Positions 4,334 through 4,962 of a DNA stretch of 64,000 nt are shown here, in pieces. The translations under genes were made by a program, and so were the position numbers. Location: contig REBR01000184.1 in the NCBI GenBank assembly GCA_007692645.1, positions 1 to 64,000 of the forward strand, given 5' to 3'. The DNA is from Halomonadaceae bacterium. GTDB taxonomy: Bacteria > Pseudomonadota > Gammaproteobacteria > Pseudomonadales > Oleiphilaceae. The notes under the pieces are model-generated. The model saw only the letters and a program-made list of their open reading frames with translations. It had not been told where the DNA came from and made no database searches. Positions within the stretch are counted from its first letter, which is position 1. Every line of letters starts with the position of its first letter.

Positions 4334-4429
4334 GTGATATCTCCAGAAAAGCCGAAATTGTACCTTATTTAACCGCCCAGGCGTATTCCCCCCAAGCCAG
4401 TTACAATGAGGATTTACCCAGGAATGCCC

Positions 4430-4558
4430 ATGTCTCAGGCGGTATTGGAACAACACCTTCACCGGACCCTGCCCCTGGGCCGGCTGTGCATCACTCGCCC
4501 TGAGGGCTGTCCGGATATATCAGGCCAGGGAGATGGCCAGGCACAAAAAAAAGGGTGA
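4430..4558 (+). other. Short open frame divergent from mnmH; possible truncated gene remnant
   Basis: ATG at 4430 after an AGGA motif; MSQAVLEQHLHRTLPLGRLCITRPEGCPDIS... is protein-like for ~30 codons, then runs into the sRNA terminator and stops. Confidence 0.3.
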
Positions 4559-4573
4559 CCGTAGTCACCCTTT
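4543..4573 (-). terminator. Rho-independent terminator of the CsrB-like sRNA
   Basis: Minus strand AAAGGGTGACTACGGTCACCCTTTTTTTT. Confidence 0.85.
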
Positions 4574-4795
4574 AAATCGGAACAGAAGCTGCGTCCTTGC
4601 AACTGTGCGACCGGTCCCTGATCGCGTATTTCCCTGTACCGTCCATGAGCACCGGCATCCTAGCCGGTATCCTATTAAGGAATCCCTCAAGCATTACTTC
4701 CGTTTATTCCTTGCTTCCCCTCAGTTCCTCTGAGGAAACCGTCCCTGTAACGTCCTTTCCCTGTCATCCGCTGACAGGGCTACTGTAGCAATTTG
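4543..4795 (-). ncRNA. CsrB/RsmZ-like CsrA/RsmA-sequestering small RNA
   Basis: About 15 GGA motifs in ~230 nt on the minus strand; hairpins present GGA in loops (CCCTGTCA-GCGGA-TGACAGGG, CCTCAG-AGGAA-CTGAGG, ACCGGC-TAGGAT-GCCGGT); ends in GGGTGACTACGGTCACCC + T8 terminator. Confidence 0.85.
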
Positions 4796-4944
4796 ATACC
4801 TAGGCATTGAAAAAAACCCGTTTCAGGATTGTCTGGCAATCGCGAGTGAAGTCTAAAAAATACTTGTAAAACATAGATATAAAAATCAACAAAAAAATAA
4901 GTGTGACGGGTGCAAGGTAAAATACAGCCAATGCTTACGGTCAA

Positions 4945-4962
4945 TGTAAGAGATATCGCACA
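4945..4962 (-). promoter_or_regulatory. GacA/UvrY-type upstream activating sequence for the sRNA
   Basis: Minus strand TGTGCGATATCTCTTACA matches 12 of 14 specified positions of the Pseudomonas GacA box TGTAAGNNATNNCTTACA; ~160 bp upstream of the inferred sRNA start. Confidence 0.6.

Follow-up and report, generated by a model that had tools for sequence, protein, structure and literature searches.

The closest described systems are CsrB of E. coli (RF00018), RsmZ, RsmY and RsmX of Pseudomonas (RF00166 and kin), and CsrB/CsrC of Marinomonas mediterranea. CsrA favours GGA motifs located in hairpin loops, and one CsrA dimer bridges two such sites 10–63 nt apart (PMC7652899). Activation of E. coli csrB by UvrY requires IHF; the UvrY site, TGTGAGAGATCTCTTACA, is an 18-bp palindrome at about −180 (centred at −183/−182), with an IHF site between the palindrome and the promoter (PMC4682653). 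The Marinomonas RNAs were predicted from a GacA box and ANGGA motifs, and their BarA/UvrY-like dependence was confirmed by RNA-seq (PMC8523701).

We analysed a 64-kb stretch of DNA, referred to below as the window. Judging from the sequence, it is about 95% probable that its minus strand encodes, from 4777 to 4545, a regulatory RNA of the Csr/Rsm type, which is predicted to titrate CsrA. Like E. coli CsrB, this RNA has GGA hairpin loops and an intrinsic terminator, but it is shorter (~230 nt), has 15 GGA rather than 22 (PMC7652899), and differs in sequence and in gene neighbours. It shares with RsmZ, RsmY and RsmX a presumed role, a GacA-box promoter, GGA hairpins and the GTDB order, although it is about twice as long as RsmZ (the model of which is 133 nt). 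The CsrB/CsrC pair of M. mediterranea, also marine gammaproteobacterial Csr RNAs, has the same architecture and was predicted by the same criteria (PMC8523701), but belongs to another genus and to other loci, and is likened here by architecture and not by sequence. The features of the RNA gene are as follows.

4545–4777, minus strand: sRNA gene, ~232 nt, 15 GGA motifs, predicted 5′ and 3′ ends
4761–4777, minus strand: 5′ hairpin CTGTCA-GCGGA-TGACAG, GGA in the loop (in the predicted fold, the GGA at 4769 has an unpaired probability of 1.0)
4719–4735, minus strand: hairpin CCTCAG-AGGAA-CTGAGG, GGA in the loop, loop bases unpaired in the predicted fold, covarying stem
4651–4668, minus strand: hairpin ACCGGC-TAGGAT-GCCGGT, GGA in the loop, covarying stem
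4550–4573, minus strand: intrinsic terminator stem AAAGGGTGAC-TACG-GTCACCCTTT, 10 bp with a loop of 4 and 8 T, the T-tract running to 4545

The initial annotation of this DNA had placed about 15 GGA motifs in about 230 nt of the minus strand, and the count on that strand of 4543–4797 is exactly 15, all of them within 231 nt. The three GGA-loop hairpins that it quoted are present letter for letter, and the strong terminator that it described is the stem at 4573–4550. Its span of 4543–4795 does contain the RNA, but the 5′ end was probably set slightly too far out, the likely RNA of 4777 to 4545 being a little shorter. Nowhere else in the window, on either strand, does a stretch of 235 nt contain as many as 15 GGA. 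Taken singly, the GGA count is only about 3 sd above dinucleotide shuffles of the 231-nt core, which have a mean of 8.9 (sd 1.9) and a maximum of 16 (n = 2000). GGA-loop hairpins depart much further from chance: there are 6 distinct sites, whereas 500 shuffles average 0.6 and never exceed 3. The minus strand folds with a predicted energy of −92.5 kcal/mol (z = −4.5), and none of 200 shuffles was equally stable. When 4777 to 4543 was folded, the five GGA at 4769, 4728, 4660, 4617 and 4596 lay wholly inside hairpin loops, while several more were partly exposed and some were paired. The spacing of the GGA motifs agrees with the 10–63 nt that a CsrA dimer can bridge (PMC7652899).

A search for a conserved coding sequence in the gap between mnmH and ubiA found none in the RNA, the homologues of which are rich in indels. 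Two plus-strand open reading frames, 4533–4733 and 4597–4788, were rejected as coding, being antisense to the RNA and having many indels in homologues. The gap had been described as having no credible coding sequence, and this holds, the sole coding trace being a remnant that lies outside the RNA.

4424–4519, plus strand: methyltransferase remnant, N-terminal part only, matching a protein of the related locus L016 (32 aa at 53% identity, E 3e-9)

Upstream of the RNA, three promoter features were identified.

4945–4962, minus strand: predicted GacA/UvrY box TGTGCGATATCTCTTACA, an 18-bp palindrome centred at about −177 from the predicted 5′ end
4867–4879, minus strand: IHF-like site TATCTATGTTTTA at about −103, with 1 mismatch to WATCAANNNNTTR
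4782–4787, minus strand: probable −10 element TACAGT (TATAGT in most homologues), preceding the predicted start

The box matches the consensus perfectly, and is the only match to TGTRNGANATNTCNYACA with 0–1 mismatch in the 3.57-Mb assembly, although this pattern was derived from the same loci and its uniqueness is therefore not independent support. Independent support comes from the likeness of the box to the published csrB UvrY site and from its fixed position. A box is found in all of 45 homologous loci, perfect in 38 of them, while control stretches mostly have 4–7 mismatches. Its centre lies at about −177 in the 45 loci (range −169 to −199, 10–90% range −175 to −179). In 22 of the 45 loci, an IHF-like site with at most 1 mismatch lies at +72/73 relative to the box, while no other offset is shared by more than 2 loci; most of these 22 sites are oriented opposite to that in the window. 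We looked upstream of the RNA for a consensus sigma-70 promoter or a good −35 element, and found neither. The lack of a good −35 agrees with expectation for an activator-dependent promoter.

All the protein partners are present in the assembly (3.57 Mb in 288 contigs, 88% complete). There is one copy of csrA, adjoining lysC, and its product has Leu4 and Arg44. The GacA/UvrY orthologue has 57% identity and is directly followed by uvrC, and the BarA/GacS orthologue has 40% identity over its full length and carries HisKA, HATPase, receiver and Hpt domains. Another hybrid kinase resembling BarA (L183, G000:C5:423–2003) has one internal TAA, and is either a pseudogene or an assembly error.

Homology of the parts points to GacS–GacA–IHF activation followed by titration of CsrA. 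The BarA/GacS kinase would phosphorylate GacA/UvrY, and GacA~P would bind to the palindrome at −177. IHF would bend the DNA at about −103, and the weak −10 promoter would then fire. The resulting RNA of ~230 nt, closed by its terminator, would present GGA in hairpin loops and linkers, where several CsrA dimers could bind and so be withdrawn from their mRNA targets. This is the architecture of a CsrA/RsmA-titrating RNA, as first proposed for this locus, and every hallmark of such an RNA that can be computed was found, including covarying GGA loops, terminator, GacA box and IHF-like site spaced much as in csrB, and the CsrA, GacA and GacS orthologues. It adds no new mechanism.

The element is widely conserved. 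A blastn search with it found matches in 20 genomes of its own GTDB family besides its own genome. A covariance model, R1, was built from the 5′ 143 positions of the RNA alignment, and matches 151 of 164 species and 14 of 16 genera of the family (Marinobacter, Hahella and allies), nearly always with one copy per genome. The records matched include Marinobacter changyiensis, M. halodurans, M. mangrovi and Marinobacter BGYM27, Hahella HN01, and records labelled as Vreelandella utahensis and Halomonas sp. One of the latter (L070, Vreelandella utahensis 22507_15_FS) falls inside the GTDB family of the window and its label is probably wrong; another (L074, Halomonas sp. CSSed165cm_193) is probably a near relative, the label of which may be wrong. 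Among 298 genomes sampled from the order, every strong match lies inside the same family. The three weak matches elsewhere (L169–L171) have few GGA and no GacA box and were treated as chance.

Stem pairing is maintained by compensatory changes, which were seen among 17 homologues in 14 of 31 stem pairs, including 8 of 9 in the terminator stem. They include CG/UA, AU/GC and CG/GC/AU changes in the CCTCAG-AGGAA-CTGAGG hairpin. An alignment of 45 distinct sequences has changes on both sides in 6 of 7 pairs of that hairpin and in 5 of 6 pairs of the ACCGGC-TAGGAT-GCCGGT hairpin. Of its paired cells, 94.7% are standard; doubly changed cells number 60, compared to 20.8 in shuffled alignments and no more than 31 in slid controls. 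As these sequences were aligned to fit the structure, the 17-locus test is the cleaner one.

The homologues are ~200–270 nt long, with a median of 15 GGA. In the 17-locus alignment the GGA-bearing blocks, such as GGGGAAGCAnGGA, are invariant. This bears on the suggestion that the RNA is a structured sRNA acting mainly by base-pairing with mRNAs (assisted by Hfq or RsmA), with the GGA motifs secondary. With its long U-tract, the intrinsic terminator does resemble those of Hfq-binding sRNAs, and there are conserved single-stranded stretches, for example the invariant GGGGAAGCA and AAGGGA. However, most of the invariant columns belong to GGA units or to the loops in which these are displayed, the number of GGA is nearly constant while the remaining sequence diverges, and the promoter is of the GacA–csrB type. 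We therefore consider a mainly base-pairing function very unlikely.

In the window, ubiA lies upstream of the RNA and mnmH follows on the same strand (mnmH was called from sequence features, its only Pfam match being a weak one to AAA_16). The terminator could thus be the regulated element of a cis-acting leader of mnmH, an attenuator or riboswitch, given that the RNA lies directly upstream of this gene, on the same strand, with a terminator at its end. This arrangement is not general. The order in most of the relatives read is VanZ/cysZ or phoR, the sRNA, a methyltransferase on the opposite strand, and mnmH, with mscS beyond in some. The methyltransferase, which is PrmA/Methyltransf_16-like by Pfam in relatives where it is intact, thus stands between the RNA and mnmH, and the window keeps only its remnant. 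Since an opposite-strand gene intervenes in most of the relatives read, the RNA is not a leader of mnmH; in addition, the terminator stem can always form and there is no conserved antiterminator pairing. A leader function is thus highly improbable. A 3′UTR product of ubiA was also rejected, as relatives have VanZ/cysZ or phoR on that side. Finally, although shuffles come up to the observed GGA count, so that the count is not impossible by chance, functionless GGA-rich intergenic DNA is refuted by the conservation in 151 of 164 species together with the covariation and the fixed promoter spacing, and its probability is negligible.

The genes flanking the RNA differ among relatives, but the neighbourhood of mnmH is the normal place for it in this family. 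The initial annotation had pointed out that the mnmH/ubiA context differs from the rpoS–fdxA locus of rsmZ in P. aeruginosa, and expected that homology searches could miss the RNA. The mnmH side of the context turns out to be the usual one, while the expectation was borne out: cmscan against Rfam 15 gave nothing at the gathering threshold, either in the 64-kb window or in any of 40 related loci. The PrrB_RsmZ model (RF00166), the cutoff of which is 44 bits, scores 13.2 on the correct strand, and the CsrB model (RF00018), with its cutoff at 71, scores 23.9 on a long homologue, L015. As sequence families, the members of the Rfam CsrB clan (CsrB RF00018, PrrB_RsmZ RF00166 and others) thus do not include this RNA. 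Sub-threshold hits to TarB, PhrS, Xoo2 and mmgR were set aside because they match the terminator hairpin or low-quality stretches only, as were matches to RF00166 from other parts of the assembly (C233 and C184), which are below the cutoff and in the case of C233 lack a good GacA box. A search of open-access papers found no description from Marinobacter or Hahella, for which subscription papers may hold an earlier in silico prediction. It is concluded that the RNA is most probably an uncatalogued, lineage-wide member of the Csr/Rsm sponge RNAs.

This provides a probable Gac/Rsm output RNA for Marinobacter, Hahella and allies, for which Rfam 15 lists none, and R1 can be used to annotate it. As the RNA is mostly present in single copy, experiments on GacA control, IHF dependence and CsrA titration would be free of the redundancy that complicates RsmX/Y/Z.

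An R1 match is absent from 13 of the 164 family genomes, and csrA and gacA are retained in the majority of those examined, which implies that the RNA is replaceable or divergent in these genomes. Joint loss of GacA and the RNA was looked for among the genomes lacking the RNA and was not seen. Weak R1 matches in these genomes (L203–L214) have few GGA and no GacA box, and were treated as chance. Five fairly complete genomes of Marinobacter genus g13 (G082, G109, G127, G134 and G157) have csrA and gacA and no detectable copy of the RNA.

Some loci differ in size or kind. L021:1498–2120 (G006) consists of at least 4 tandem GGA modules of ~125 nt, with 35 GGA in ~620 nt behind one GacA box, and L015:1494–2115 (G010) is also long, with 38 GGA in ~620 nt and little internal repetition. 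L014 is intermediate, with 20 GGA in ~356 nt. The R1 search of genus g4 gave no match; in G035, which belongs to this genus, loci L202 and L197 have shorter GGA RNAs (11–12 GGA) with terminator-like ends behind GacA boxes, suggesting that the standard RNA has been replaced. The expansion to 35–38 GGA and the unrelated-looking GGA RNAs behind the g4 GacA box raise the possibility, which we put forward tentatively and at somewhat less than even odds, that what is conserved is the GacA/IHF promoter, and that the CsrA-sponge RNA behind it has been repeatedly rebuilt. If so, duplication of modules and non-orthologous replacement would be the means of tuning CsrA-titration capacity. At L202, there are two similar copies of the GGA RNA, located 1 kb apart.
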